Translations under genes and position numbers: made by a program | Shown here: positions 5,381 through 31,531 of the stretch, in pieces | Numbering within the stretch: position 1 is the stretch's first letter | How the letters are laid out: every line of letters begins with the position of its first letter | The notes under the pieces: generated by a model | Database searches by the model: none | What the model saw: the letters and a program-made list of their open reading frames with translations, nothing else | What the model was told of the DNA's origin: nothing | NCBI GenBank assembly: GCA_947459875.1 | Contig: CANHFG010000015.1 | Location: 1 to 36,301, forward strand | Source: Ignavibacteria bacterium | Lineage (GTDB): Bacteria > Bacteroidota > Ignavibacteria > Kapaibacteriales > Kapaibacteriaceae | DNA: 36,301 nucleotides | Direction: 5' to 3'

Positions 5381-6496
5381 ATGTGCCGAAACACGTCTCA
5401 AGCACCACTGGTGCTGTTGTTGCTCGTTGCTGTTGTAGCGTTCACAGCGTGTACGAGCGATACCACAGATCCGGGACCGGTAACGCCGGCCACCTACGAC
5501 TCGACCGGCTTCGGGTCGGCTACGCAGGCAGAGTTTGAGATCCGCTCGAACATGGCCTCGCTGGTCGCACTGATGAAGACCGCCCGCCAACCTGGCGTAC
5601 GCCTATCTCAGAGCGAGATCGCATCCCGCCTGGCCCACTTGTCTGGTTTCATCCCGCAGAGTTTCACCGAGAAGCTCGCAACGTATTCCGCCGAGCTTGC
5701 CGATGCCAGTGGTGGCACGCTCAACTGGCTGACACGTCCGGGCATGAATGCCAATGGCGGCACCTACGGTGGGTACCTCTTTAGCGAGCATGGACTCGAG
5801 ATGGAGCAGATGATCGACAAGGGGCTCTACGGCGCGATGTTCTACACGCACGCTCGCAGCCTTGTTGCATCGGCCGTGACAAAAGAAAATGTCCATCGCA
5901 TGCTGGCGCTGTTTGGTGCGAACCCGGACTTTCCAAATACGGATCGTGCTCAAGTTCGTCCTGATGTTTTTGCGGCTGCCTACTGTGCGCGCCGTGATCA
6001 GAACGATGGAAAGGGGATGTATTCACAGATCCGTCGTGAGTTCATCCGAGCACAGACGGTCATTAGTGAGAGCAAATCCGCAGAGGCACGTTTGGCCGTC
6101 GAGGCAGCATTCCGCCTTTGGGAACGGGCCATCATGGCCACCGTGATCAACTACACCTATACGGTGGTGACCGAACTGAGTGCAACCAATCCGTCCGACT
6201 CCTCGCGCGGTCTGGCCATGCATGCCTACGGCGAGTGTATTGGATTCCTCACGGGCTGGCGCTTTGTGAACGCTGCAGATCGCACCATTACCACGGCCCA
6301 GATCGATGAACTGCTGAGCCTCCTGAAGGCACCGTTGAACGGTCCATGGACGTGTTACGACATATGGCAGCAGCCGCAGGTAAACCTGACGCGGGTTGTC
6401 AATGCCCGAGAAACGCTCCAGTCCATCTACAGTTTCAGCGATGAGGAGATGATCTCCTTCAAGAGCAACTGGGTGAACGTGCAGGGACGACGCTGA
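5381..6496 (+). CDS. DUF4856-family lipoprotein
   Basis: A 371-residue predicted lipoprotein (signal peptide with lipobox ending FTAC, Cys near residue 24). The body resembles the DUF4856 family of Bacteroidota: SATQAEFEIRSNMASLVALMK near the N-terminus, GLEMEQMIDKGLYGAMFY in the middle, LFGANPDFP, then LWERAIMATVINYTYTVV and a terminal YSFSDEEM segment. The family is largely helical and its biochemical function is unknown to me; members typically sit beside imelysin genes and TonB receptors, as here, which suggests a surface or periplasmic component of metal uptake. The stop and the next start overlap as TGATG, so the imelysin gene is translationally coupled. First gene of the operon, directly downstream of the palindrome. 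The family assignment is by eye and moderately divergent. Confidence 0.78.
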   Translation: MCRNTSQAPLVLLLLVAVVAFTACTSDTTDPGPVTPATYDSTGFGSATQAEFEIRSNMASLVALMKTARQPGVRLSQSEIASRLAHLSGFIPQSFTEKLATYSAELADASGGTLNWLTRPGMNANGGTYGGYLFSEHGLEMEQMIDKGLYGAMFYTHARSLVASAVTKENVHRMLALFGANPDFPNTDRAQVRPDVFAAAYCARRDQNDGKGMYSQIRREFIRAQTVISESKSAEARLAVEAAFRLWERAIMATVINYTYTVVTELSATNPSDSSRGLAMHAYGECIGFLTGWRFVNAADRTITTAQIDELLSLLKAPLNGPWTCYDIWQQPQVNLTRVVNARETLQSIYSFSDEEMISFKSNWVNVQGRR

Positions 6497-7599
6497 TGAT
6501 ACGCGCACATTTCGTTCTCGGAGTCGTGATCGTTCTGATGACCTCCTCCTGCGCGGATAACAGCGCTCCGGTCGATAGCAACTTCGACCGCGCAGGCATG
6601 CTCACGGCGGTTGCTGACAGGATCATCATCCCGTCGTACGACTCGGCCAGCGCTGCGGCTGCTCATCTTGCAACGAAGTGTCAAGGGGCTCTCAGCGACC
6701 AGACACTCGACGCCACTGAGCTGGTCGAACTTCGCGAGGCCGCAGGTGCACTGATGCGTCGCACGCAGCAGATCGCATCATTCAACTTCGGACCAGCCGA
6801 AGGAGACTTTGGCACGCTGATGCAGGAGATCGGAACGTTCCCCTGCGACACGGCGGGCGTTGCGTCGCGCATCGCTTCGGCCGATACCTTGTTGACGGAT
6901 TTTCGCCGAGACACTCGCGGTCTTGCCGCGCTTGACTACTTGCTCTGGGGCAGCGAGTCGGATCTGCAGATCACGGCACTCTTTAGCGGCACGCAGGGAA
7001 CGGGTCGACGCGCCTATCTGAGGGCAGTTGCGATCCGTTTGCGTGCTGAGCTCGAATACGTAAACACGCAGTGGCGGTCGACGTATCGCTCGACCTTTAT
7101 CAGTCGCAGCGGAACTGATGCCGGAAGCTCCGTGTCGCTTCTGTTCAACGAGCTCAACAAGAGCTTTGAACTCCTGAAGAATTTCAAGCTTGGATTGCCC
7201 CTTGGCCTGCGTGCGGGACAGACCTCCACGGAGCCGACCAAGATCGAGGCGTACTACAGCGGACTGGCATATGAACTTGTCGGTCTGCACTTCCGCTCGA
7301 TCAAAGAGATCTGGTCGGGCCGGCTCTCTGACGGTACGGTCATCCCTTCCTTCCGTGATTATCTGTTGGCAGTGGTCAACGGTCCACGTCTGGTAGAGGA
7401 TACCGAAGCACAACTGGCGCGGATCGATGCTGCCTACGCAACGGTGAGTCAGAACAACATGGGTGAGCTCATCCGCACTAACCCGCAGGCACTTGTAGCA
7501 TTGCATACCGAGATGCAGAAGCTGACACGCTTCATCAAGAGTGAGATGTCGTCTCTGCTCGGCATCTCCATCACCTACAGCAGCGGCGACGGTGATTAA
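6496..7599 (+). CDS. Imelysin-like lipoprotein (IrpA/M75-like) with altered motif
   Basis: A 367-residue predicted lipoprotein; lipobox TSSC puts the lipidated Cys at residue 19. The fold family is imelysin, a helical periplasmic or surface protein group linked to iron uptake and once called peptidase M75. The usual GxHxxE motif aligns with GLAALD (residues 142-147) in RGLAALDYLLWG, so the histidine is alanine and the glutamate aspartate. A canonical metal site of that type is therefore absent, as in a subset of Bacteroidota imelysins. Helical segments later include AYYSGLAYELVGLHFRSIKE. It overlaps the DUF4856 gene by one base and is followed three bases later by the HTTM gene. A role as metal- or carrier-binding accessory protein of the TonB receptor is inferred from gene order; peptidase activity is unlikely. 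Confidence 0.82.
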   Translation: MIRAHFVLGVVIVLMTSSCADNSAPVDSNFDRAGMLTAVADRIIIPSYDSASAAAAHLATKCQGALSDQTLDATELVELREAAGALMRRTQQIASFNFGPAEGDFGTLMQEIGTFPCDTAGVASRIASADTLLTDFRRDTRGLAALDYLLWGSESDLQITALFSGTQGTGRRAYLRAVAIRLRAELEYVNTQWRSTYRSTFISRSGTDAGSSVSLLFNELNKSFELLKNFKLGLPLGLRAGQTSTEPTKIEAYYSGLAYELVGLHFRSIKEIWSGRLSDGTVIPSFRDYLLAVVNGPRLVEDTEAQLARIDAAYATVSQNNMGELIRTNPQALVALHTEMQKLTRFIKSEMSSLLGISITYSSGDGD

Positions 7600-7602
7600 T
7601 CG

Positions 7603-8880
7603 ATGATCGATCACCGTCCGATGTCACTCGCCCCTTTGGCGATCCTTCGCATCATCTTCGGCACGGTGATGGTGATCTCCTGCGCGCGCTTTGCGTGGCT
7701 GGGCTGGATTCGGGAGCAATACATCGACCCTGTTGTTCACTTCCCGTATGCGGGGTTCGAATGGGTTGTTTCACTGGGTGATCCGGGGATGTACGTTCTG
7801 TTCGGGGTCATGGCGTTGGCGGCCGCGGCTGTCGCACTCGGCGCGTGGTATCGCATCAGCAGCGTGGTGTTCTTCCTCAGCTTCACGTATGTGGAGCTGA
7901 TCGACAAGACCTACTACCTCAACCACTACTACTTCGTCAGCATTGCCGCCTTTCTGTTTTGTCTGGTTCCTGCGCACAGGATGTTGAGTATCGACGTGAT
8001 GCGCAAGCCCGAGTTACGGGCCGATACCGTGCCGCGCTGGGTGTTGGACGTGTTCAAGCTGCAGATCGCGATCGTCTATGTCTTTGCCGGTATTGCCAAG
8101 ATCAATCACGCATGGCTGATCGATGCCATGCCACTGCGCATCTGGTTGCCGGCGCAGAGCGACCTGCCTGTGATCGGTCCGCTCATGACGCTTTGGTGGT
8201 TGCCGTGGGTGTTCTCGTGGGCCGGAATGCTGTTTGACTGTTGCGTACCGTTTCTGCTGTGGAACCGTCGAACACGTCCCTATGCGTATGCTGCCGTGAT
8301 CGTATTCCACGTGATCACCGGAATGATGTTTCAGATCGGTGTCTTCCCGCTGGTGATGATCGCCATGACGCTGGTGTTCTTCGAACCGGGTGCATCGCAA
8401 CCTCAACACGGCTTGTCCAGCGTGCTTGTGCGAATGCCACGCCCCGTAACGATCATCCTGGCAGCACATCTTGCGGTGCAGATTCTGCTGCCGTGGAGGT
8501 TCCTGCTCTATCCCGGTGATCTTCCCTGGACCGAGGATGGCTATCGCTTCTCGTGGCGCGTGATGCTGATGGAAAAGGCCGGTACGGCAACATTCACGGT
8601 GTGGGATGGGGCGACGGGGCGCGGAGGAATCGTCGATAACAGCGAATTCCTCAATGCGCATCAGGAAAAGCAGATGTCGATGCAGCCCGATATGATCGTA
8701 CAGTATGCCGGCTTTCTGCGCGACGAGTTTACACGTCGTGGCGTTCCACGTCCGCGCGTTACCGCCGACGTGTGGGTAACGCTGAACGGGGCTCCTGCAC
8801 GCCGCATGGTCGACCCGCAAAGGGACCTATCACGGGATGAGATCGGCCTCGGACCGAGCACATGGGTACTGGCGCGATGA
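7603..8880 (+). CDS. HTTM / vitamin-K gamma-carboxylase-like membrane protein
   Basis: A 425-residue multi-pass membrane protein of the HTTM group (horizontally transferred transmembrane domain), related to vitamin K-dependent gamma-glutamyl carboxylase. Hydrophobic helices lie near residues 10-30, 63-80, 86-100, 108-123, 150-165, 200-220 and 228-260. Conserved-looking segments are YLNHYYFVS (105-113), VYVFAGIAKINHAWL (158-172; Lys166 falls where the animal enzyme has its catalytic lysine region) and FDCCVPFLLWNRRTRPY (211-227). The C-terminal soluble part has PWTEDGYRFSWRVMLMEK, also typical of the carboxylase family. The enzyme would modify a protein or small molecule at the membrane, but its substrate is unknown. 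Codon 7 is an alternative start. It sits between the imelysin and receptor genes and overlaps the latter. Confidence 0.85.
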   Translation: MIDHRPMSLAPLAILRIIFGTVMVISCARFAWLGWIREQYIDPVVHFPYAGFEWVVSLGDPGMYVLFGVMALAAAAVALGAWYRISSVVFFLSFTYVELIDKTYYLNHYYFVSIAAFLFCLVPAHRMLSIDVMRKPELRADTVPRWVLDVFKLQIAIVYVFAGIAKINHAWLIDAMPLRIWLPAQSDLPVIGPLMTLWWLPWVFSWAGMLFDCCVPFLLWNRRTRPYAYAAVIVFHVITGMMFQIGVFPLVMIAMTLVFFEPGASQPQHGLSSVLVRMPRPVTIILAAHLAVQILLPWRFLLYPGDLPWTEDGYRFSWRVMLMEKAGTATFTVWDGATGRGGIVDNSEFLNAHQEKQMSMQPDMIVQYAGFLRDEFTRRGVPRPRVTADVWVTLNGAPARRMVDPQRDLSRDEIGLGPSTWVLAR

Positions 8881-11126
8881 GATCTGCCGCCATTATTCGT
8901 TCGTGCTGCATTGGCACGCTGTTACTGCTATGGGCGGGAGTGTGCCTTGCCGGTGGTGCGGATGTTGAGTCGACCCCTACCGTGATTCTCGGTGCGAAGG
9001 ACACCATCCTTATGCGCCTCGTGGAGGTCTCCGGCCTGCACGAATCACCATTTCTTATCACACGCATCGATGACGTGGAGAACGGCGTGATCTTCGCAGC
9101 CAAGAAGACAGAGCGTATCTCTCTTGCGAACGTTATCGCCAACACCGCGACAAACAACACGCGTCAGACCTTTTCGGCCATTGCAGGTCTTACGATCTGG
9201 GAAAGCGATGCGGCCGGACTGCAGCTGGGAATCGGTGCGCGCGGACTGAATCCGAACCGGACGTCGAACTTCACGACGCGGCAGAACGGCTACGATATCT
9301 CTGCTGATCCGCTGGGTTATCCCGAAAGTTACTATACGCCACCGCTGCAGGCACTCGAGCGGATCGACATCGTGCGGGGCGCAGGCGCGCTGCGGTACGG
9401 AACGCAGTTCGGTGGGGTTGTGAACTTCATCATGCGCGAGCCCCCTCGTCAGGACCCGCTTACAGCCGAGATCATGCTGACGGGAGGATCGTATGGATTT
9501 GCCAGCGGTCTTGCCCGCGTAGGTGGCACCGTGGGCAAAACATCCTACAGCGTCATGGCACAGTACCGTCGGGCTGACGGGTGGCGACCCAACAGCGAGT
9601 TTGATCAGCGCCTCGGATATGCCTACGTCCGGCACGCCATCACGCCCAACTTCCGTATCACGGCTGATGTGACGGCCATGCAGTACCTGGCACATCAGGC
9701 GGGCGGGTTGACCGATCGGCAGTTCGCTCTCGATCCTGGTGCATCATTGAGAGCGCGCAACTGGTTCAATGTCGACTGGTTGCTGGGATCGGTAACGGCC
9801 GACTGGATCATCGACTCGATCACAACGATGCGATCAATGTTCTTTCTGAATTCGAGCTCGCGCGCTGCACTGGGGAATCTTGATCGGATCAATATGATCG
9901 ATCTAGGTGGTGATCGCACGATGATCGATGGGGTCTTCCGCAACATCGGCAACGAGACCACCGTGCAGCAGGACCGAACGATCCTTGGACTACCCGCGTC
10001 CATCCTCGGTGGTGTACGCCTCTTCCGCGGCGTCACCACGCAGCGGCAGGGAACGGCCTCGTCCGGAAGCGGTGCGGACTTTCAGTTTTCGGGAAGGGGC
10101 CTGCGTGACGGCTCGGACTTTACCTTTCCGAACACCAACGTGGCGGCCTTTGCCGAAGCCGTTATCACGCTTTCGGATCAGATCCGCATTGTGCCCGGCG
10201 TGCGGGCTGAGCATATCTCTACCCGGGCGGAGGGCCGCTACGGCCTGTCCGTACGGGATCTTGCCGGCAACTTGGTGGTCGATTCACTGGTCGACGAAAC
10301 ACGGCAGCGTGACCGCACCATCCTGCTCGCAGGCATTGGCCTAAGCTACAAGACCGGCCCGATGGAACTGTATGCGAACCTTACGCAGAACTATCGTTCT
10401 ATCACGTTCAGCGATCTGCGCATCATCAATCCCAATCTCGTTGTCGACGCGGACATCGCCGATGAGCGCGGTGCAACGGCCGACGTTGGAGTGCGCGGCA
10501 CCATCGATGATCTGCTGTCGCTGGACGTGTCGCTCTTCTACCTCAGCTATCGCGATAAGATCGGCGAGGTGCTTCGCAGTGATCAGGCGCCGTTATATCT
10601 GCCATACCGATTCCGCACCAATGTGGGTGATGCATATACCACGGGTATCGAGGCCATGACGGAGGTCAGTCTCACTCGTCTCGTCGGCTATGAGGCAGAC
10701 GAGCCCGTTCCTGATGTTCACCTGATGATCAATGGCTCGGTTGTCAGGGGGCGCTACAGTGTCCCACGTGACCCGTCGATCGATGGCAACGTGATCGAGT
10801 ATGTGCCGGATGTTGTCCTGCGCACAGGCCTGATCGTACGCTACGGCAGCTTCCGCAGCTCACTGCTGCTGTCCCATACCGGACGCCAGTTTACCGATGC
10901 CACGAATGCCGAATTCTCCGCCTCTGCCGTCAGCGGTGCGCTGGCCGCGTATCGTGTTGTCGATCTGACGATGACCTATACGATCAGCCCGGTAGTTGTA
11001 GAGCTGACGTGCAACAACCTGCTTGATGCACGCTACGCTACGCGGCGTGCAGAGGCGTATCCCGGACCCGGCCTAATACCTGCCGAGCCGAGAAGTATCT
11101 TCCTCGGAATGCGCCTTACGCTCTGA
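8877..11126 (+). CDS. TonB-dependent outer membrane receptor (FecA-like)
   Basis: A ~749-residue TonB-dependent receptor that would import a ferric complex or other large solute across the outer membrane using TonB-ExbBD energy. I chose ATG 8877, which forms an ATGA overlap with the HTTM stop and gives a clean signal peptide (MRSAAIIRSCC...VCLAGG); ATG 8862 would add five residues. The plug domain is clear: TFSAIAGLTIWESDAAGLQLGIGARG, then LERIDIVRGAGALRYGTQFGGVVNFI, followed by a beta-barrel with long extracellular loops and the typical end SIFLGMRLTL. There is no N-terminal carboxypeptidase-like repeat, so it is not SusC type. Its ligand cannot be read from sequence; the imelysin and DUF4856 neighbours favour iron. 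Last gene of the operon, ending three bases from a convergent gene. Confidence 0.9.
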   Translation: MRSAAIIRSCCIGTLLLLWAGVCLAGGADVESTPTVILGAKDTILMRLVEVSGLHESPFLITRIDDVENGVIFAAKKTERISLANVIANTATNNTRQTFSAIAGLTIWESDAAGLQLGIGARGLNPNRTSNFTTRQNGYDISADPLGYPESYYTPPLQALERIDIVRGAGALRYGTQFGGVVNFIMREPPRQDPLTAEIMLTGGSYGFASGLARVGGTVGKTSYSVMAQYRRADGWRPNSEFDQRLGYAYVRHAITPNFRITADVTAMQYLAHQAGGLTDRQFALDPGASLRARNWFNVDWLLGSVTADWIIDSITTMRSMFFLNSSSRAALGNLDRINMIDLGGDRTMIDGVFRNIGNETTVQQDRTILGLPASILGGVRLFRGVTTQRQGTASSGSGADFQFSGRGLRDGSDFTFPNTNVAAFAEAVITLSDQIRIVPGVRAEHISTRAEGRYGLSVRDLAGNLVVDSLVDETRQRDRTILLAGIGLSYKTGPMELYANLTQNYRSITFSDLRIINPNLVVDADIADERGATADVGVRGTIDDLLSLDVSLFYLSYRDKIGEVLRSDQAPLYLPYRFRTNVGDAYTTGIEAMTEVSLTRLVGYEADEPVPDVHLMINGSVVRGRYSVPRDPSIDGNVIEYVPDVVLRTGLIVRYGSFRSSLLLSHTGRQFTDATNAEFSASAVSGALAAYRVVDLTMTYTISPVVVELTCNNLLDARYATRRAEAYPGPGLIPAEPRSIFLGMRLTL

Positions 11127-15323: not shown

Positions 15324-17030
15324 TTACCGTGTGCGCACCAGCGTTCCGAACGAGCCACGAGTTCTGCGACCATGCAGGATGTAGCGGTACGACCCGGATG
15401 CAGCGGAGACAGCACCATCGGTCATTCCGTCCCAGATCACTGTGTATCGTCCTTCGTCAACAGGTGTCTCGCGAAGAAGAGAGCGAACGAGGTTGCCCTG
15501 CATATCCACGATGTCGATGGAGATCACATCGGCAGCCGGCAGCGTGAAGGCGATCGACGTTCGGTCCATCGATGGATTCGGATACACGTGCTCATCGAGG
15601 TAGTCGGTGTTCCACAGAATTGGAATGCTCGTTGCCAGCGAGTCATAGCAGTTCTTTGCGCCGATGACGTAGGATGCGGAGACATCCTTGTTCTTCCGAT
15701 TGCCTGCCTCATTCTTCGGAGGATAGCTACGCACGTACTCGATCTTTGTGGCCTCGGGGCTGACGTTCACGCGCATGTGACCGGAGTTCGGTAGAATGAG
15801 TCCCTCGAGATAGCCGTAGGCGGTAGCCTGTCCCGTACCGGAATATCGGGCGTGGCTTGGCTGCGGCACTTCCTGGTAGATCAGGCAGTCCTTCTCCTGC
15901 TTTCCGAAGAAGTGGTCATGACCGTGAAAGAAGACGTTCACACGGTGACGTTTGAGAAGGTCCTTGATGGGTAGTTCCCAACCGGGACGGTTTTTGGAGA
16001 AGCCTTCGGTGCCGTCGAGATTCTTGCCGCCCCATTCATAGCGATCAGCAAACTCCACGCCACCGCGTCCGTCAGGGTCGCCCCCTACCAGCTGATGCGA
16101 GAAGATGAACTTGAAGGTAGCGGTTGACTTGGCAAGCGTTGCCCGGAGCCACTCGTACTGTTCTCTACCCAGCGTCCAGCGCCAGCCATTGAGAGAGTCC
16201 GGCTTAGGCTTGGTGAACCAGTATGGATCGATCACCATGAACAGCGCATCGCCCCATTCCCAGGCATAGTAGGCGCCACGCCGTCCCACGAACGGGTAGC
16301 TTGTGGTATCGCCCGTGTAGAACCCATCTGGCTCGGGGTTGAGGAAATACTTCTTGCGGTCAGTTGTGCCGTAGACCGGTACGTTGTCTGCCGTTCCATT
16401 ATTTAGCCAGCCGGCCTCCCCTTCGTGATTGCCGAGGGTAATGAACAGCGGCACTGTGTGACAGGCCTCTTCATAAAATGAACGTAGCAAGCGTGCACGA
16501 TAGGTGATGGTGTCATGCGTGACCTTCTTCTGGGCGTTCGTCATCTTGTCCGACATGAGTATGTCGCCAAGGTCGATCATGAAGTCAGGAGAGTCCTCCA
16601 GCTCATTGCGCAGCGTTCGCAGATACACCGAGGTGTCACTCTGCTCATCCATGTGCGGATCGGCCTGTATAACGAACGTGAACGGTGAGCCTCTGCGCCG
16701 CTGCGTATGGAATGAATACGTTGGGCGAGTAACAGAAGGGGCTCCCTGCTGCTTGCGATAGACCACCTGGTAGAAGTAGCGCGTGTCGGGTTGCAGCTCG
16801 TTTATCATGATGGTGATCGGCTCTGCGGAATTGACCCTCGTCCACGGTGTCTGCGCGTTAAGTGCATCCGCCGCCGTGCCGTAGTAGACGCTTGCCTCGA
16901 CGCTCTGGTCGGGTACGATCTGAATGGTGATGGATTTGTCGGTCGGACGTCCCAGAAGCTCACGATGCTGGAGCGTCTGCGATGTGGCAACAGAAAAACT
17001 CGTAAGGACGAGAGCAATGATCAATCGCAT
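15324..17030 (-). CDS. Secreted metallophosphoesterase with FnIII-like and FlgD-like domains
   Basis: A 568-residue exported phosphoesterase of the calcineurin/purple-acid-phosphatase-like group. Order: signal peptide (1-18), purple-acid-phosphatase N-terminal (FnIII-like) domain (~20-110), catalytic domain (~115-400), then a C-terminal FlgD-Ig/T9SS-type region starting at VYPNPSMDRTSIAF. Metal ligands visible are D124 and H126 (ADPHMD), D156 (DLGD), N201 and H202 (GNHE), SH at 311-312 and HGHDH at 369-373, so the dinuclear site is complete. The C-terminal YTVIWDGMTDGAVSAASGSYRYIL is a FlgD-like sorting module. Its ATG overlaps the stop of the upstream paralogue by one base (TAATG), so the two are translationally coupled. 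Substrate (phosphate esters or nucleotides outside the cell) is inferred only from family. Confidence 0.9.
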   Translation of the reverse strand: MRLIIALVLTSFSVATSQTLQHRELLGRPTDKSITIQIVPDQSVEASVYYGTAADALNAQTPWTRVNSAEPITIMINELQPDTRYFYQVVYRKQQGAPSVTRPTYSFHTQRRRGSPFTFVIQADPHMDEQSDTSVYLRTLRNELEDSPDFMIDLGDILMSDKMTNAQKKVTHDTITYRARLLRSFYEEACHTVPLFITLGNHEGEAGWLNNGTADNVPVYGTTDRKKYFLNPEPDGFYTGDTTSYPFVGRRGAYYAWEWGDALFMVIDPYWFTKPKPDSLNGWRWTLGREQYEWLRATLAKSTATFKFIFSHQLVGGDPDGRGGVEFADRYEWGGKNLDGTEGFSKNRPGWELPIKDLLKRHRVNVFFHGHDHFFGKQEKDCLIYQEVPQPSHARYSGTGQATAYGYLEGLILPNSGHMRVNVSPEATKIEYVRSYPPKNEAGNRKNKDVSASYVIGAKNCYDSLATSIPILWNTDYLDEHVYPNPSMDRTSIAFTLPAADVISIDIVDMQGNLVRSLLRETPVDEGRYTVIWDGMTDGAVSAASGSYRYILHGRRTRGSFGTLVRTR

Positions 17031-18661
17031 TATCGATCTCCGATCAGAATGGTCTGTCGTGTCGGCGCACCATCAATGGTCGCAAGCACGTCGTAGAGTC
17101 CGTGCGGCAGCGTCGAGACGTCGATGGATGTTGCTGACGAGCGGAGCACGATCTGACCCAGCACGTTGGAGATCGTCACGTCAACCGATGATGTGGTCGG
17201 AGCAAGGATGTTCAATGATTCGCGAGCGGGGTTTGGTGCGATGACGGTTTCACTTTTCGTCGTTTCGTCATCAACAGAGACCGGGCGCTGCTTGACGGTG
17301 TAGGAGTGGCCCACGGAGCCATTCGTGTTCGCACCTCCCACCGTGTCCTTTGGCATGTAGGCGCGGACGAAATCGACAACAACGCCGGCATCGGACACCT
17401 TGACGCGCAAGTGACCTGTTCCGCGCATGGTCACGTCGGTGTACGCATCGGCATTGGCAAGCACGCCGATCTCGTACGTGGAGTCGCTCGGCATCGGAGT
17501 CTCCTGATATACGAGACCGTCGAGTTCTTCCTTGGCGTAAAGGTGGTCATGGCCCTGGAAGAAGATGTTGACGCCGGTATTCACCATGAGCTGGTGGATG
17601 GGCAGGCCCCACCCTGGGCGAAACTTGTCGAACTCGTACGTTCCCTTGTTGTTGTAGCCGCCCCACTCAGCCCCTTTCGCTGTGACTACGCCGCCGCGAC
17701 CCTGCCCGCGTGTGTGGTGGGCGAAGACGAACTTGTACTTGGCATTGCTGCTTTCGAGCGCGTTCTTGAGGAAGCGATACTGCGTTTCCCCAAGCGTCCA
17801 GTCCCAGTTCTGCGGCTTTTCATTCACGTCACAGTCACGATACACATCCAGAACAACGAACAGTGCATCGCCCCATTCAAACGCATAGTAGTTCTCGGGG
17901 TAATCGATCCCATTCGGTTCTCGCGTCATGTTGCCGGTGTAGAACCCATTGGGGAACGGATTCGGGTAGTAGTACTTGCGCCAGATCGTACCCCAGACGG
18001 CAATGTTGTTCGGCGCGTTCTGCTTGAGATAGTAGCCCGTCTCACCTTCGTGATTTCCGAGGCAGAAGAAGAATGGGACGGAGTGACAGATCGAACCGAG
18101 GTACTGCAGGTAGTCTCTGTGCAGGTCGTCCATGTCCTGACTGGTTGTCGTTTCGGGCGTGTGGTCGTCACCGAACGTATCACCGAGTGAGAGCATGAAG
18201 TCAGCACTATCCTTCTTCATGTTCTCGATCGCGATCTTATACATTGCCGGTATGCCCTTCTTGTCGTAGAGATGCTCGTCGGCCTCTACGAGGAAGGTAA
18301 AGGACTCGCCCCTTGCCCTCTGCGTCCGGAACGAATACTCCGGCGATGTTTGGAATGTGGGACCGCCGAGCTGGCGGTAGCGCAAACGATACACGTGCCG
18401 TGTGTTTGGCTCGAGTCCGGTTATGTCGACCTTTATGGACTCTCCGGCTTTGCAGGTTACCACAGGCGTCTGCGCATTGTACATGCCGCTGAGCGTGCCG
18501 TATTCAAAGAAATATTCCGACGCCTTGCCGAAATAGACAGCCGCCGTGATGGACCTATCCGTTGGACGTCCAAGGATGACGGAGAATTCCTGCGCTGATG
18601 CACCTGCTGCTGCCACGAGCATGGCAAACAGGAAAACAGGGAAAAGTATGTCACGTTGCAT
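17030..18661 (-). CDS. Secreted metallophosphoesterase, paralogue with T9SS domain
   Basis: About 543 residues from ATG 18661, chosen because it starts a clean signal peptide (MQRDILFPVFLFAML...ASAQ); the open frame reaches 18772 but the added part is not signal-like. Domain order mirrors its neighbour: FnIII-like domain (~25-115), catalytic domain (~120-400), T9SS sorting domain (SETVIAPNPARESLNI to the end). Ligands: D128 and H130 (EADEH), D161 (LGD), N203-H204 (GNHE), HH 315-316 and QGHDH 369-373. Shared blocks with the next gene include ILGRPTDRSIT, FFFCLGNHEGE, NGFYTG, AEWGG and FRPGW, so the pair arose by tandem duplication and diverged. The second copy uses a FlgD-like end and this one a classical sorting domain, which suggests different surface attachment. 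Confidence 0.9.
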   Translation of the reverse strand: MQRDILFPVFLFAMLVAAAGASAQEFSVILGRPTDRSITAAVYFGKASEYFFEYGTLSGMYNAQTPVVTCKAGESIKVDITGLEPNTRHVYRLRYRQLGGPTFQTSPEYSFRTQRARGESFTFLVEADEHLYDKKGIPAMYKIAIENMKKDSADFMLSLGDTFGDDHTPETTTSQDMDDLHRDYLQYLGSICHSVPFFFCLGNHEGETGYYLKQNAPNNIAVWGTIWRKYYYPNPFPNGFYTGNMTREPNGIDYPENYYAFEWGDALFVVLDVYRDCDVNEKPQNWDWTLGETQYRFLKNALESSNAKYKFVFAHHTRGQGRGGVVTAKGAEWGGYNNKGTYEFDKFRPGWGLPIHQLMVNTGVNIFFQGHDHLYAKEELDGLVYQETPMPSDSTYEIGVLANADAYTDVTMRGTGHLRVKVSDAGVVVDFVRAYMPKDTVGGANTNGSVGHSYTVKQRPVSVDDETTKSETVIAPNPARESLNILAPTTSSVDVTISNVLGQIVLRSSATSIDVSTLPHGLYDVLATIDGAPTRQTILIGDR

Positions 18662-18813
18662 AGCAGCGGTTCCAGAGTGGTGGCCGGCCTTCAGTTTGCG
18701 ATTCGGCGAAGAAACCACCGTACTTCGTTTCGTTACTTTCGCAACCAGGCCGCTGTGGTGCATGACCGGCAACGGCGGTGAACTGACCGATTCACGACCG
18801 ACGGACCTTAGCT
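18662..18813. other. Divergent promoter spacer
   Basis: A 152-bp spacer between the divergent phosphoesterase pair and the beta-helix gene. It contains a coding-like extension on the minus strand (the upstream part of the open frame to 18772) that I judge untranslated. GGAAC about ten bases upstream of ATG 18661 may be its ribosome site. Confidence 0.35.
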
Positions 18814-25783: not shown

Positions 25784-25881
25784 GTGACAGGTGACAGGTG
25801 TCAGGTGTCAGGTGACAGGTGTCAGGTTTCAGATGTGGGGTGTGAGGTGAATGACAACCTGAAACCTGAAACCCGAAACCT
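25784..25881. repeat. 7-bp tandem units forming an inverted repeat between convergent genes
   Basis: Seven units of GTGACAG/GTGTCAG/GTTTCAG run from 25784 to 25832. Near the other end CTGAAAC, CTGAAAC and CCGAAAC (about 25859-25879) are the reverse complement of GTTTCAG. The two sides can pair into a stem in the 96-bp spacer between convergent stops, so the element may act as a bidirectional transcript end. GGGGTGTGAGGT at 25837-25848 recurs at 32431-32442. Confidence 0.75.
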
Positions 25882-26863
25882 ATTCGAGCATCATCAAAAA
25901 CGCTATGATGTCTTTGCGCTCCATATCTGACAGGGGGCCGATGGCGCGTACGCGCGGGTCGGTGTGGTCAGGAAGGGCTGCGGTGTTGGAGTAGTGGGCC
26001 AGAACATCGCGCAGACGTTTGAAGCGTCCGTCGTGCATGTAGGGGTGGGTACGAGTGATGTTGCGCAGCGAGGGCACCTTGAAGCAGAAGAGATCCCGTT
26101 CATCGTGTGTGATGCGGATGCGTCCGCTGTCTGGTGATGCGGCGTTGGGCTGCAGGCCGTTGCTGGCAAAGCCGTTGTTGGTGAACAGCGGTTCGGTGTG
26201 GCACGTGGCGCAGTGACGTCGGAAGAGCTGCAAGCCCCGTTGCTCATTCTCGGCAAGCGTGTCCTTGCCCTGCATGGCACGATCGTAGCGGGAGTCGGCC
26301 GAGACAAGTCCGGCCACAAAGCGTCCGAGTGCGCGTAGCACGCGAGGGATGGTGATGGTGTCGCTGCCAAAGGCCGAGCGGAAGCGCAATGGATATGTTG
26401 GGTGAGCGTTGAGTTTTGCGAGAAGATGGTCCAGGTTTTCGGACATCTCCTCATGACCTGTGATGGGGCTGAGCGACTGCATGTCGAGGTTGGCAATGGA
26501 GCCGTCCCACATGAAGGATGTCTGCCAGGCAAGGTTCTGCAGGGCCGGGACGTTGCGACGTCCGATTCGACCCTCCACGCCGTGACTCAGGGCGTGGTCG
26601 ATATGCGCAAACGCCGCAAACGGCTGGTGGCACGTCTGGCAGCTCGTTGAACTGTCAACCGACAGGATCGGATCTTCAAAGAGCATCGCACCGAGAGCCG
26701 CAACAGCAGAGTCGCTCGCGCACGGACCGCCGCGATACACGCGCTCGGGAAAGCCCGGTGGCTGGGGAATTCGCGCGGTATCGGTGTTGTCGTGATTATG
26801 CGCAATCACAGCAACGGAGATGGCGATGAGTGCCAATGCAAGCTCCCTTGCGCTACCGGACAC
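25880..26863 (-). CDS. Diheme cytochrome c peroxidase family protein (MbnH-like)
   Basis: About 327 residues from GTG 26863 (preceded by GAGGGA; the signal peptide is ARELALALIAISVAVIA). TTG 26836, preceded by AAGGGAG, is an alternative. The open frame reaches 26980 but that part overlaps mbnP coding. Two heme-binding motifs, CQTCH (75-79) and CATCH (218-222), plus FMWDGS and PSLRNITRTHPYMHDGRF with the family methionine at ~276, place it in the diheme peroxidase/MauG superfamily. Downstream of an MbnP gene it most likely belongs to the MbnH subgroup, which in methanotrophs oxidises a tryptophan of MbnP to kynurenine. Periplasmic. The overlap of 11 bases with mbnP argues for coupled translation. 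Ordinary H2O2-detoxifying CcpA function is the alternative. Confidence 0.88.
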   Translation of the reverse strand: MSGSARELALALIAISVAVIAHNHDNTDTARIPQPPGFPERVYRGGPCASDSAVAALGAMLFEDPILSVDSSTSCQTCHQPFAAFAHIDHALSHGVEGRIGRRNVPALQNLAWQTSFMWDGSIANLDMQSLSPITGHEEMSENLDHLLAKLNAHPTYPLRFRSAFGSDTITIPRVLRALGRFVAGLVSADSRYDRAMQGKDTLAENEQRGLQLFRRHCATCHTEPLFTNNGFASNGLQPNAASPDSGRIRITHDERDLFCFKVPSLRNITRTHPYMHDGRFKRLRDVLAHYSNTAALPDHTDPRVRAIGPLSDMERKDIIAFLMMLE

Positions 26864-27566
26864 GGAACATCCCTCGAAGACGGTCGATGACGTCGGATGC
26901 TTGCCGTGCATCGGTGACGCTCGGACGCTTGGTGATGTCGAAGGCTGGCTCGGCATCGAAGAACCGGTCGAGCGCGACATCGACGATCAGCGGTTCCCGC
27001 CACGAGCGACCCTCTACCGGAAGCGTTACCCTGAACGTGTTTTGGTATGGGGCTTTGTAGCCCCCTACATGGATCTCATAGACGCGCCGCGCAACGCCGG
27101 GTGCTTCGAGCGTGCCCTCGAGCTTCAAGAAAATGTAGCCCGTGGCCCAGGTCCAGTACATGCCGTTGCGCGGGTCGAGGGCACCCTCGCGTGGACCCTG
27201 CTCGTTGACGATGCTATCGACGCCAATGGTGAACGACACGGCCTGCCCTCTGCCCCAAGGGGCGGAGGGAACATCAACGTTGTGCGGTTCGGTCACGTCA
27301 ACAAGCACATGGTCGGACGTGCTGATCGACGGGCTGTCCATGCCGTGGATCGTGATGCCCGAGACGTAGAACTTCAGCATGCTGAAGGTAATGCGCGCCC
27401 CTGAAGCCGTTAGAAACGTCGTGCTATCGAAGGTAACGGGCTTGCCGTTGAATGTGGGTTGAAACTGCATTCCGAGAGCCCCCTGCTGAGCAAAACAGAA
27501 CACGCCCTCCATCGTAAAGAGCAGAAGGCTCAGAACCATGGAGGGCGTGATGAAAAGGGGCTTCAT
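26853..27566 (-). CDS. MbnP-family copper-binding-type protein
   Basis: A 237-residue exported protein with a signal peptide (to about CFAQ, residue 27). The blocks LGMQFQPTFNGKPVTF, ITFSMLKFYVSGITI, VSFTIGVDSIVNEQG and especially GALDPRNGMYWTWATGYIFLKLEG (129-151) are those of the MbnP family (formerly part of a DUF annotated as MbnP-like). In methanotroph MbnP, a tryptophan oxidised to kynurenine helps bind copper; two tryptophans are present here at 138 and 140 in MYWTW. The next gene is the expected diheme partner, with an 11-base overlap. Upstream, 12 bases separate it from the YHYH protein. No methanobactin precursor, MbnB/C or TonB gene is near, so the pair works in another setting, probably copper handling in the periplasm. 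Confidence 0.87.
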   Translation of the reverse strand: MKPLFITPSMVLSLLLFTMEGVFCFAQQGALGMQFQPTFNGKPVTFDSTTFLTASGARITFSMLKFYVSGITIHGMDSPSISTSDHVLVDVTEPHNVDVPSAPWGRGQAVSFTIGVDSIVNEQGPREGALDPRNGMYWTWATGYIFLKLEGTLEAPGVARRVYEIHVGGYKAPYQNTFRVTLPVEGRSWREPLIVDVALDRFFDAEPAFDITKRPSVTDARQASDVIDRLRGMFRVR

Positions 27567-27578
27567 GAAGGTCGGCAG

Positions 27579-28967
27579 TTACTCGCTGATGATCACCGGA
27601 AGGTTGATGCTCGAACTGTTCCGGGTGATGCGCGCAACATACGCACCGGCGTAGAGTGACTGCACATCGAGGAAACACATGGTGCTGCCTTGCTTGATCG
27701 TGGAAGTGCGGACGATGCGACCACCAAGGTCGATGAGATCGACAGAGGCGGTCTCGGTCATCGGTGATGTGACCTGGATGATCAGCGCGTCGGCTGCGGG
27801 GTTGGGAAATACGGTGACGGTGGAAAGCGCGGCATCGTCATCCGTAGACGTCGTTGAACTGTACGTCTGCACCGCTTCGGTGATACGGACGTTGGTGGAG
27901 GCTGCTCCCGGACCGCGCACGGGGAAGTTGTCGGTGACAACCACGCCGTAATAGGTCGGACCGATCACATACGGATACACCGAGTTGCCGTCGGCATCGA
28001 TCGTTGCGAAGTAAGCGTAGGTGCCTTCGGGGTATTCTGGTGTGGTGCAGAAGCGTCCGTTGTGAATGTCGAGATCGCCGGACCCTTCAACGTATTCGTA
28101 GTCTTCGGCATAGGAGCCAAGGGGCTGAGCAGTCAGTGTTGGACCGTATTGCGCTTGCGTCAGCTTCGTACCATCAGCCAGCGTTGTGCGCTCGGTGATA
28201 CTGCGAAGCCGATAGCTTGGCGTGATGCGCTTGACGACCTGCTTGCCCCCTTCCGTCACCCAGCCGTAGGCGCCGTAGATCGGATAGCCGTCGAACGAGT
28301 AGCCGATCAGCGGACCGTGCTTGGTAGCATCCGGCACGTAGAGTCCGTCTGCCAGGTACATATCGCACACGTCGGACATCTTGACCTTGGCGATGTTGAA
28401 GGCCGATGGGTCCTGGTGGTGATGGTATTGCCCCTGTGTTCCGCCTCCGCCCATGCCCGGCGGTCCTGTTTGCAAGGGGGCTGGGTGACCTTTTGCGCAG
28501 TCGAAGCCTGCACGCTCAAACACGATGGCATTCTGGTGCCACACGTTGCCGTTGTTGTAAGAGCGCGCATCTGCATAGTTGTACACCGGCACGCCGTTGA
28601 TGAGCACGGCGACGTGGCCGAGGCCGACAGCGGTCTTCGTACCGTTGTTTGCCTGCGGCTTGAGCGGGATCTTGAACAGGTAGTTGCGTCCGACGGCCTG
28701 CGCAGGATTGCCATCCTGGTACGGTCCGATCACGTAGGCCGGAATGCCGTTGCACCGAACGTAGGAGTAGTCGGCCGAGTATTGAACCAGCTGACAGTTT
28801 GCCTGGAAGGTGTCGACGACCGGCGTCGGATTACCCTTCATGTAGTGCCGACCCGTAATGCCGGTCGTGTTCTGGATCCACGATGTGATTGCCGGGTGGG
28901 TGGGCTGGCCCAGCGCGATGACTGAGGTTGCAGCGAGCAGAGTGCAGAACACTCGCAGTGATTTCAT
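27579..28967 (-). CDS. YHYH-domain secreted protein with T9SS sorting domain
   Basis: A 462-residue exported protein. Signal peptide at 1-20. The YHYH domain spans about residues 60-345: NYLFKIPLKPQ, VAVLINGVPVYNYADARSY, then the histidine cluster GQYHHHQDPSAF (YHHH 181-184 in place of YHYH), LIGYSFDGYPIYGAYG and GDLDIHNGRFCTTPEYPEGTYAYF. The C-terminal VTVFPNPAADALIIQV ... LYAGAYVARITRNSS is a classical T9SS sorting domain, so the protein should end up on the cell surface or outside. The histidine cluster suggests metal binding but the biochemical role of YHYH proteins is not established to my knowledge. Part of a five-gene minus-strand run with MbnP and MbnH; 12 bases separate it from mbnP. 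Confidence 0.88.
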   Translation of the reverse strand: MKSLRVFCTLLAATSVIALGQPTHPAITSWIQNTTGITGRHYMKGNPTPVVDTFQANCQLVQYSADYSYVRCNGIPAYVIGPYQDGNPAQAVGRNYLFKIPLKPQANNGTKTAVGLGHVAVLINGVPVYNYADARSYNNGNVWHQNAIVFERAGFDCAKGHPAPLQTGPPGMGGGGTQGQYHHHQDPSAFNIAKVKMSDVCDMYLADGLYVPDATKHGPLIGYSFDGYPIYGAYGWVTEGGKQVVKRITPSYRLRSITERTTLADGTKLTQAQYGPTLTAQPLGSYAEDYEYVEGSGDLDIHNGRFCTTPEYPEGTYAYFATIDADGNSVYPYVIGPTYYGVVVTDNFPVRGPGAASTNVRITEAVQTYSSTTSTDDDAALSTVTVFPNPAADALIIQVTSPMTETASVDLIDLGGRIVRTSTIKQGSTMCFLDVQSLYAGAYVARITRNSSSINLPVIISE

Positions 28968-28985
28968 GTGGTATTCTCCGGTAGA

Positions 28986-30194
28986 TCAGCGTTTGATAAG
29001 AGGTGTTGTCCGCACTTGTTGGTGTGCATCAACATGCACACAATAGTAAGACCCTGCAGCGAGCCAGGAGACATCAATGTTCTGTGTGTGGGCCGACGTT
29101 AGGACTGCTGCTCCGGTCACATCATAGAGTGTTACGCGTACCGTTCCGATGGGAAGTGTAACGAGTCCAGAGGCCGGATTCGGATAGAGGGCCAGCTCTG
29201 GCTGCTGCTCCTCATCGTCCACCGATGTTATGTCCGGTGAGCCCCCTCGCACGCACATCAGCTTCATCTTGAGGTTCTTCTTGTCGTAGGTGATCACTCC
29301 AAGATCGGCCTTCAGCGTCCATGCCTGATCGTTGTTCTGCGAGATCAGCGTCGTGGATGACCACAACGTTGTTGTGGAGGCAACGCAGGGGAAGTACAGC
29401 AGGTCCACACACGGACCCTTTTCCTGCTGCTCGCGGATGGTGTGCAGCTCCTTGATGTTCGGCATGCGCCAGTCGGTAAAGCCCCCTGACGAGAGCGTAT
29501 CAGCCACGCGGAGTGCGTCTTCCCATGTTACAGCCACCGCATGACAATACTGCTGCCAGACCAGCTCAGTGGCGTTATCGCGCACAAGGTCTGCGCCCAT
29601 GTCCGTGAAGTGTACCGGAACATTGACAGGGGGCTGAAGGGCCCGCACTGCACGCACATGGAACTTCTTTGTGCCGCCGGAGGAAATGGTCTCATTCTTC
29701 GGGTGTGGTCCAATGCCTCCGCCAGCGTTGGTTGCGAATACCCGTGTGGCATCTCCTACCAGAACATCCGACGAGTACCAGTACTCAGCACCGGTGATGG
29801 CGAATGCGGCCGGCAGTGCAGGGTTCTTACGTCCGAGATCATGAATAGTGAACAGCTCCTGCGAGGTGGGCATGCGCCAGTCCATGAAGCCGCCAAGCTC
29901 AAGGGCATCGCAGTAGGAAGCCCCCTTCTCCCATTCCATCTCGCCGCCGTCCGTACGCTGCCACATCAGGCCTGTTACGGTGTCGATCACTATATCCTGT
30001 TGAACGAAATACACAGGCGTGCCAATCTTTACATCGCTGTCTTCTCCGGGAACGGTTGTGAAGTCGCCATTCTGTCCGGTATCCGGGATACGCTTCATGG
30101 ACTTCGTATGCGGACGCTGGGCCATCACGATGAAGGGGGCTGCACAGACCATGACCACCAGGATGCTGAGTTTCAATGCAGTTCTCATGCGCAT
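28986..30194 (-). CDS. DUF1566 (Lcl-like) repeat protein with T9SS domain
   Basis: A 402-residue exported protein starting at ATG 30194, which overlaps the upstream gene's TGA by one base (TGATG); GTG 30197 is one codon earlier. After a signal peptide (to about IVMAQ) there are two DUF1566/Lcl C-terminal modules. The first has DTVTGLMWQRTDGGEMEWEKG, GGFMDWRMPTSQEL and YWYSSD; the second has DNATELVWQQYCHAVAVTWEDAL, GGFTDWRMPNIKELHTI and TLWSSTT. The end (LALYPNPASGLVTLPIG ... LAAGSYYCVHVDAHQQV) is a T9SS sorting domain. DUF1566 modules are widespread in secreted proteins and thought to have a C-type-lectin-like fold; ligand unknown. It is flanked by two YHYH proteins, 18 bases from the next one. 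Confidence 0.87.
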   Translation of the reverse strand: MRMRTALKLSILVVMVCAAPFIVMAQRPHTKSMKRIPDTGQNGDFTTVPGEDSDVKIGTPVYFVQQDIVIDTVTGLMWQRTDGGEMEWEKGASYCDALELGGFMDWRMPTSQELFTIHDLGRKNPALPAAFAITGAEYWYSSDVLVGDATRVFATNAGGGIGPHPKNETISSGGTKKFHVRAVRALQPPVNVPVHFTDMGADLVRDNATELVWQQYCHAVAVTWEDALRVADTLSSGGFTDWRMPNIKELHTIREQQEKGPCVDLLYFPCVASTTTLWSSTTLISQNNDQAWTLKADLGVITYDKKNLKMKLMCVRGGSPDITSVDDEEQQPELALYPNPASGLVTLPIGTVRVTLYDVTGAAVLTSAHTQNIDVSWLAAGSYYCVHVDAHQQVRTTPLIKR

Positions 30195-31531
30195 CACTTT
30201 CTGGTGTAGGTGACTGTGGATCGAACTGAATCTGTCTTGACGAAGTTGAAGATGAACTGCTTACCGGTGCTGTCCCAGCGATAGTTCACAAAGTTCGTCT
30301 TGCCCCCCACCTCGTAGCGCAGCGCATAGTGGTTAGTGTCGCACTGACGCAGATCGGTAATGGTGGCTCCGCGCAGCGCCTGCAGAAATGGACGCACGCC
30401 GGAGGCACGGGGCTGTGGCATAATCTGATCGTTTTGAATGGTGATCTTTCCCCGCATGGAGGCGATCATGTAGGGCTTCTTGTTGATAGCATGGTAGTGA
30501 TACTCGCCGTTCCAGAGATGTCCGAGGTGCTGGTCGAGATTTGATGCCGGCGTGCCATCGGGCTCTTCGTAACCATAGAGCTTGTAGCCGTCGAGTGCCC
30601 AGGCCACAGGTGTTTTGCTGGAAGATTTGGAGGCAAGGTGCACAGGGGCAATGTGGTAGTGATAGTCATCGGCCCTGCCGCAGTGTCCACCAAAAGCATC
30701 GAGTTCTCCGATGTCCTGCGAAAACTCACCGCGATTGTTCTCGGGATTGAAAACCGGCACGCCATTGATGGCGATCGCCACCGCCCCTGTGTGCAGGGCC
30801 GTATCGAGTGAAACCGGCACATCGGCGATGACCGGATTCAACGGAATTGCCCAGGCATTGCTGCCTGTGTATGGCTGCGGAATAGGAACCTGTTGCTGCC
30901 AGGCAGTAATGCCTTTCATGGCCGGCATGGCAGTAGGCATGCCGTTACTTTCGACGTAGAAGTAGGTAGCATCCCAGCGCGTTTTGACACGGGGCTTGTA
31001 GGACGCAAAGGTGCTGTCGATGGACTCTGGTGGAGTCGGACCGAGGATCTCGACAATCCGTGCGGTGGTTCCGGGGCTTGCAGACAGGAAGAGGAACAGC
31101 ATGCTGCCGGCCGTGCCGGCTATGCGCAGGGAGGTTGAGCGCGTTACCATAAACGTTCCGAGCAGCAGAGCACATGCGATGAGTGCCAGTTCCGTGGTGT
31201 GGTCCCTCCCTGACGTCGGCGTTTGAACGACGACTGGACTGGGCGCTTCCACGGGGGCGTTCATCTCCGTGATACGGCCGATCTCATCTTCGAGCCGCTG
31301 CTGATCGGCCGACGAGAACTGCTCGAGCGGAATAGCCTTCAGGGCGCCGCTTCGCTGTTCGAGAATGATCCAGCTACCGCGTGTACTGTGGAATGTCCCG
31401 TGAATGTGTTTGCCGCTGGCCAGTAGCCACGTCGAAACCGGCCCCGACCCGTGACCACCGGTGTGTGCGAGTAAGGAAGATGTGACGGCAGATGCCGCCA
31501 ACAGCAATAGCGCCAGAATATGTCGTCCCAC
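30194..31531 (-). CDS. Membrane-anchored YHYH-domain protein
   Basis: A 445-residue protein, first gene of the YHYH-MbnP-MbnH run. GTG 31531 is the start, with a strong GGAGG (31539-31543) 7 bases upstream. Order: signal peptide or first helix (residues 5-22), a histidine-rich segment AHTGGHGSG, an SHD1-like small beta domain (GTFHSTRGSWIILEQRSGALKAIPLEQFSSADQ), two membrane helices (~113-130 and ~135-152), then a periplasmic YHYH domain. The latter has two exact YHYH boxes, at 290-293 (DDYHYHIAP) and 344-347 (GEYHYHAINKKPYM), plus AINGVPVFNPENN and VAWALDGYKLYGY. No sorting domain, so it stays at the inner membrane. The two YHYH proteins of this cluster thus sit on different envelope layers. 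Confidence 0.87.
   Translation of the reverse strand: MGRHILALLLLAASAVTSSLLAHTGGHGSGPVSTWLLASGKHIHGTFHSTRGSWIILEQRSGALKAIPLEQFSSADQQRLEDEIGRITEMNAPVEAPSPVVVQTPTSGRDHTTELALIACALLLGTFMVTRSTSLRIAGTAGSMLFLFLSASPGTTARIVEILGPTPPESIDSTFASYKPRVKTRWDATYFYVESNGMPTAMPAMKGITAWQQQVPIPQPYTGSNAWAIPLNPVIADVPVSLDTALHTGAVAIAINGVPVFNPENNRGEFSQDIGELDAFGGHCGRADDYHYHIAPVHLASKSSSKTPVAWALDGYKLYGYEEPDGTPASNLDQHLGHLWNGEYHYHAINKKPYMIASMRGKITIQNDQIMPQPRASGVRPFLQALRGATITDLRQCDTNHYALRYEVGGKTNFVNYRWDSTGKQFIFNFVKTDSVRSTVTYTRK

Follow-up and report, generated by a model that had tools for sequence, protein, structure and literature searches.

What does an MbnP–MbnH pair do in a genome without recognisable methanobactin genes, and why is it encoded in one block with YHYH and DUF1566 proteins, for which we know of no function? 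The question is raised by five consecutive genes at positions 25880 to 31531 of contig CANHFG010000015.1, from an Ignavibacteria bacterium of the Kapaibacteriaceae (assembly GCA_947459875.1); the whole 36,301-nt stretch that was analysed is called the window here. Our answer, to which we give a probability of about 0.55, is that the block represents a variant of an operon that is widespread in Bacteroidota and handles a metal, most likely copper, outside the cytoplasm. The new element is a conserved, apparently metal-regulated operon with a YHYH protein exported by the type IX secretion system (T9SS); the occurrence of the MbnP–MbnH pair beyond methanobactin producers, also in copper operons, was already known (PMC3621798). 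In the literature that we searched, MbnP/MbnH and YHYH are treated in separate papers, and none was found that covers both or describes the operon, in keeping with an earlier impression, formed from the letters alone (the sequence-only reading), that the system as a whole is undescribed.

The gene block and its products

All five open reading frames lie on the minus strand, in the places assigned to them by the sequence-only reading, and their families all score over the Pfam curated cut-offs. The 5'-most gene (30194..31531), with a GGAGG site ahead of its GTG start, encodes a membrane-anchored YHYH protein of 445 amino acids (aa). It overlaps by 4 bases the gene of a 403-aa protein (28986..30197) with two Lcl_C (DUF1566) stretches (148 bits) and a T9SS C-terminal tail. 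After a gap of 18 bases follows the gene of the T9SS-exported YHYH protein (27579..28967, 462 aa), and after another 12 bases that of MbnP (26853..27566, 237 aa, with a signal peptide), which overlaps by 11 bases the gene of a putative MauG/MbnH-type dihaem enzyme (25880..26863, 327 aa). The junctions are thus as tight as had been claimed (overlaps, or gaps of 18 bases or less), and a sigma-70 promoter scan found no promoter within the block. The claim that methanobactin genes are missing holds because PF05114 (MbnB) is unmatched in the host genome, which is about 99% complete. The only PF14240 genes in that genome are the two YHYH genes of the block.

MbnP matches Pfam PF20243 at 124 bits (cut-off 27). 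PDB sequence searches with MbnP gave no MbnP match, but a fold search with its AlphaFold model (predicted local distance difference test, pLDDT, of 88) did, reaching the Methylosinus trichosporium MbnP structure 7l6g with a Foldseek E of 4e-8 and a VIA Z of 15.9 (root-mean-square deviation 3.1, 201 residues, 21% identity); the next row had a Z of only 4.4. MopE and CorA were absent among the fold matches, which does not exclude kinship with them. Both tryptophans of the WxW motif (W138-T-W140) are invariant in 55 of 55 relatives, as are M136 and H166. Judged by profile scores and motif, the window MbnP belongs to the broad family, with an intact WxW site, and falls outside the TIGR04052 equivalog. 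In methanotrophs MbnH is known to turn a tryptophan of MbnP into kynurenine for copper binding; by analogy with the methanotroph proteins, the residue expected to become kynurenine here would be W138.

Against Pfam CCP_MauG the MbnH protein scores 162 bits, over the curated cut-off, and against TTQ_mauG 169.7 bits, where the cut-off is 443.85. Its reading frame is open to 26980, a start that would lie upstream of the signal peptide and overlap mbnP by 128 bases. The true start is most probably the GTG at 26863, since the signal peptide is then N-terminal and the overlap with mbnP is short, as in relatives (4 to 44 bases in most, commonest 4 or 11). Two CxxCH motifs (C114-H118 and C257-H261) are invariant in 52 of 52 relatives, as is Y330, and the inter-haem W158 is found in 51 of them. 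The tyrosine aligns with Tyr294 of MauG and is also found in the MbnH structure 6e1c. Given the roles generally ascribed to this tyrosine and to the inter-haem tryptophan, its presence suggests that the protein is a modifying enzyme of the MauG/MbnH type and not a classical peroxidase. The fold, the WxW motif and this tyrosine together back the proposal that the pair is of the kynurenine-forming type.

The exported YHYH protein scores 163.6 bits against PF14240 and the membrane-anchored one 45.2 bits (cut-off 25). The latter has a signal peptide, a hydrophobic segment at about residues 112-133 and a C-terminal YHYH domain, with no T9SS tail. Its hydropathy fits the inner-membrane location first proposed for it; several relatives, however, carry a T9SS tail behind the membrane segments, and in those organisms the domain may therefore end up elsewhere than in the inner membrane. 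Across seven relatives of the membrane protein, H283, H291, H293, H298, D314, H338, H345 and H347 are invariant. In the exported protein H161, H182-184, H217 and D226 are conserved, and W30 and W143 are nearly invariant. The fold of its C-terminal tail matches T9SS sorting domains, and this tail domain was all that PDB sequence and fold searches returned; the core was modelled with a low pLDDT, too poorly for its fold to be recognised, so that this fold cannot be called new. In BFVD the model matches phage YHYH proteins. A third YHYH subfamily, of short proteins (about 260 aa), occurs in genomes G204, G277, G308 and others.

Linkage across Bacteroidota

The association of the MbnP–MbnH pair with YHYH is seen well beyond this genome, across Bacteroidota. 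In an even sample of the phylum (395 genomes, with PF14240 in 38 and PF20243 in 96), 23 genomes have a long YHYH gene, and in 7 of them an MbnP gene is no more than about 3 kb away; a rough estimate for random placement, with MbnP assumed to occur about once in 4 Mb, leads to an expectation far under one. A scan of the collection yielded 80 close T9SS-YHYH loci, all from Bacteroidota, whose neighbours were scored with profiles built in this analysis. MbnP and/or MbnH occur on the same strand within 6 kb in 57 of the 80, a figure too high for YHYH proteins in general, since the query used to pick similar loci was made up mostly of MbnP-linked YHYH; the even sample gives the lower proportion above. 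Nine of the remaining 23 loci have less than 3 kb of upstream sequence. MbnP–MbnH without YHYH nearby was the rule in the survey of loci elsewhere in Bacteroidota (30 of 30), and since the pair alone is thus the general state in the phylum, YHYH is the added element. At L090 (1898-7488), and also at L091 and L094, the YHYH gene follows those of a TonB receptor and of a two-component pair resembling LytS/LytTR, with no MbnP–MbnH.

Regulatory genes recur at these loci. Within 10 kb of YHYH, the 80 loci have an MbnH-like gene in 58 cases, MbnP in 47, a Spy/CnrX-like sensor in 33, an extracytoplasmic function (ECF) sigma factor in 32 and a multicopper oxidase in 13. The commonest order is ECF, a protein of about 95 aa (with one transmembrane segment where inspected), sensor, MbnP, MbnH and YHYH. 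The small protein is anti-sigma-like and matches no credible family. About 30 relatives show this CnrYXH-like layout, in which the sensor match is sub-threshold.

The five-gene block is made up of two modules, a conserved core of MbnP, MbnH and the T9SS-exported YHYH protein, and a second unit of membrane YHYH and DUF1566. In relatives the linkage of the core is kept, but in the six same-order relatives examined the second unit lies on a contig other than that of MbnP–MbnH, a separation that the sequence-only reading had itself named as evidence against its single five-gene set. Of the 7 genomes in the order with a membrane YHYH gene, 6 have a DUF1566 gene in its vicinity. The modules are joined in L139, as a single run of MbnP, MbnH, multicopper oxidase, YHYH, redoxin, membrane YHYH, c25 and DUF1566, and in L103 they stand side by side, converging. 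In L079, L103, L120 and L136 the gene for membrane YHYH has purple-acid-phosphatase-like genes next to it. Two homologous metallophosphoesterases are encoded in the window (15324..18772, minus strand), the one at 17030-18772 with a T9SS tail, and could be extended members of the system, although other genes intervene before the five-gene core. At L078 (8263-8814) a HupE/UreJ_2 gene sits between membrane YHYH and DUF1566, another possible metal link.

In a quick tree of MbnH, with moderate support, 30 sequences form one branch (Shimodaira–Hasegawa-like approximate likelihood ratio test 95) against 32 other Bacteroidota MbnH. Of these 30, 27 are YHYH-linked, and three (L072, L076 and L081) were grouped by kinship, not linkage. 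The branch mostly splits by gene order. The window MbnH groups with those of L100, L116 and L126, in which YHYH comes before MbnP; all three have ECF and sensor genes upstream. In the MbnP tree the YHYH-linked sequences fall in two places. Two independent origins of the link were considered and not retained, as a single clade is compatible with the approximately unbiased (AU) test (p-AU 0.4) and the MbnH tree has one branch.

Metal handling and its alternatives

We propose that MbnH would oxidise the first tryptophan of the MbnP WxW motif (W138) to kynurenine in the periplasm, and that this kynurenine would build a high-affinity Cu(I) site on MbnP. The co-produced T9SS-exported YHYH and DUF1566 proteins would reach the cell surface by type IX secretion, with the membrane YHYH protein staying in the membrane. 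In these places they could serve as metal-dependent partners, either as an enzyme or as a metal-binding surface protein working with MbnP. In many relatives the set is preceded by genes for a putative ECF factor, a small membrane protein that is anti-sigma-like and a periplasmic sensor resembling CnrX/Spy, so that metal status probably acts as the switch of the operon. Copper as the metal is suggested by the MbnP family and by the multicopper oxidase, tyrosinase and CPC-motif HMA ATPase genes near relatives. For example, genome G101 has two multicopper oxidases and a tyrosinase near YHYH, and a CPC-motif HMA ATPase (CopA-type) near MbnP–MbnH. On the strength of such neighbours and the family, the metal role first proposed for the block, most likely with copper, is retained.

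In the operon YHYH is combined with a known type of chemistry, the predicted MauG-type formation of kynurenine, and with what is probably a metal-responsive switch, so that the functions of YHYH and DUF1566 can be tested directly; if the proposal is true, kynurenine copper sites reach beyond methanotrophs to many Bacteroidota. A bolder form of it, which we offer tentatively and which may well prove wrong, is that an ECF/CnrX-like switch governs a dedicated MbnP–MbnH subfamily and its T9SS-exported YHYH in a widespread undescribed system, and that YHYH would be a new extracellular metal-handling class dependent on the kynurenine copper site.

Several observations weigh against metal handling by such an operon. 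Both members of the pair fall short of the equivalog models, MbnP with 41.9 bits against TIGR04052 (cut-off 140) and MbnH with 162.6 bits against TIGR04039 (cut-off 362.85). Some YHYH loci with ample flanking sequence have no MbnP–MbnH. The sensor scores 25.8 against PF13801 (heavy-metal resistance), below the curated cut-off of 29.2, and no ECF or sensor genes adjoin the block in the window. That block has no copper gene, and no PF07732 multicopper oxidase was found in the host genome. In phages, moreover, YHYH has been predicted to bind Zn and to hydrolyse (PMC7824862).

If that prediction carries over, YHYH would be a Zn enzyme, and it and its companions (sulfatase, phosphatases and multicopper oxidase) could be secreted hydrolases and oxidases acting on an extracellular substrate, and MbnP–MbnH an accessory that supplies or guards the metal cofactor. 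The match of the YHYH model to phage proteins and the operons with sulfatase, purple-acid-phosphatase-like and multicopper oxidase genes fit this explanation; most core operons, however, consist of regulators, MbnP, MbnH and YHYH only, without those enzymes, and we consider it unlikely. The sequence-only reading had suggested a relay of copper or another metal spanning the envelope, with histidine-rich YHYH proteins on the inner membrane and outside the cell; worked out for copper acquisition, YHYH proteins at the surface and in the inner membrane would pass copper to and from MbnP. The conserved His and Asp positions in both YHYH types, the placement of one protein in the membrane and the export of the other, and the kinship of MbnP with copper proteins are all compatible with it. 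The label histidine-rich does not stand, as the His content is only 2.2% and 3.8%; in addition, in same-order relatives the membrane YHYH module stands apart from MbnP–MbnH, the block is without a transporter, and sensors of the CnrX type are associated with an excess of metal and not with its lack. We rate the relay as improbable.

Enzymes of the MauG type alter aromatic residues in the proteins they pair with, and MbnH might also, or mainly, act on YHYH, e.g. at the nearly invariant W30 or W143, with MbnP as a docking or electron-transfer partner. One locus (L118) does have MbnH and YHYH with no recognisable MbnP. Yet the MbnP to which MbnH is so closely coupled has an invariant WxW, and the pair occurs without YHYH as a rule elsewhere in Bacteroidota, which makes YHYH a very improbable target. 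Modification of MbnP, within an operon that handles metal outside the cytoplasm, is the explanation that we prefer.

Known systems and further loci

The MbnP–MbnH pair of M. trichosporium OB3b (TIGR04052/TIGR04039, GenProp0940) is like that of the window in its gene pairing, 7l6g fold, WxW and MauG-type tyrosine. It differs in that the window MbnP has about 20% identity to it, the window pair scores below the TIGR cut-offs, methanobactin genes are lacking, and the pair is coupled to T9SS-exported YHYH and DUF1566 proteins, to which relatives add the ECF factor and the CnrX-like sensor. In other methanotrophs, MopE-SACCP and CorA-CorB combine a copper protein whose site has kynurenine with a dihaem peroxidase-like gene (PMC3912023). 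The window has the same pairing, with kynurenine predicted, but its exported proteins are YHYH and DUF1566. Only the relatives resemble CnrYXH of Cupriavidus metallidurans, with their ECF factor, one-transmembrane protein and anchored sensor of about 150 aa with its sub-threshold PF13801 match; there the triad precedes MbnP, MbnH and YHYH and not an efflux pump. MbnP–MbnH is also placed in DUF2946/TonB-receptor copper operons, outside methanobactin operons, in a passage of PMC9426467 that does not mention YHYH, T9SS or the ECF triad. Phage YHYH proteins share the domain and its conserved His and Asp, but are tail-associated (PMC7824862), whereas those of the window are T9SS-exported or membrane-anchored and linked to MbnP–MbnH.

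Three further loci may be mentioned. The YHYH gene of L070 (937-6230), whose genome belongs to the same family, has near it a redoxin gene and those of a tyrosinase and of two T9SS multicopper oxidases. A second MbnP, with WGW as its WxW and an extra C-terminal tail, is followed by two different MauG/MbnH-type genes on contig C22 of the window's own genome (L082, 7415-10423) and at L064 (7411-10464), and forms a separate paralogous set within the genus. In the window itself, plus-strand genes at 5381-11126 for DUF4856-like, imelysin, HTTM/VKGC-lumenal and TonB receptor proteins make up an imelysin-type metal uptake cluster.

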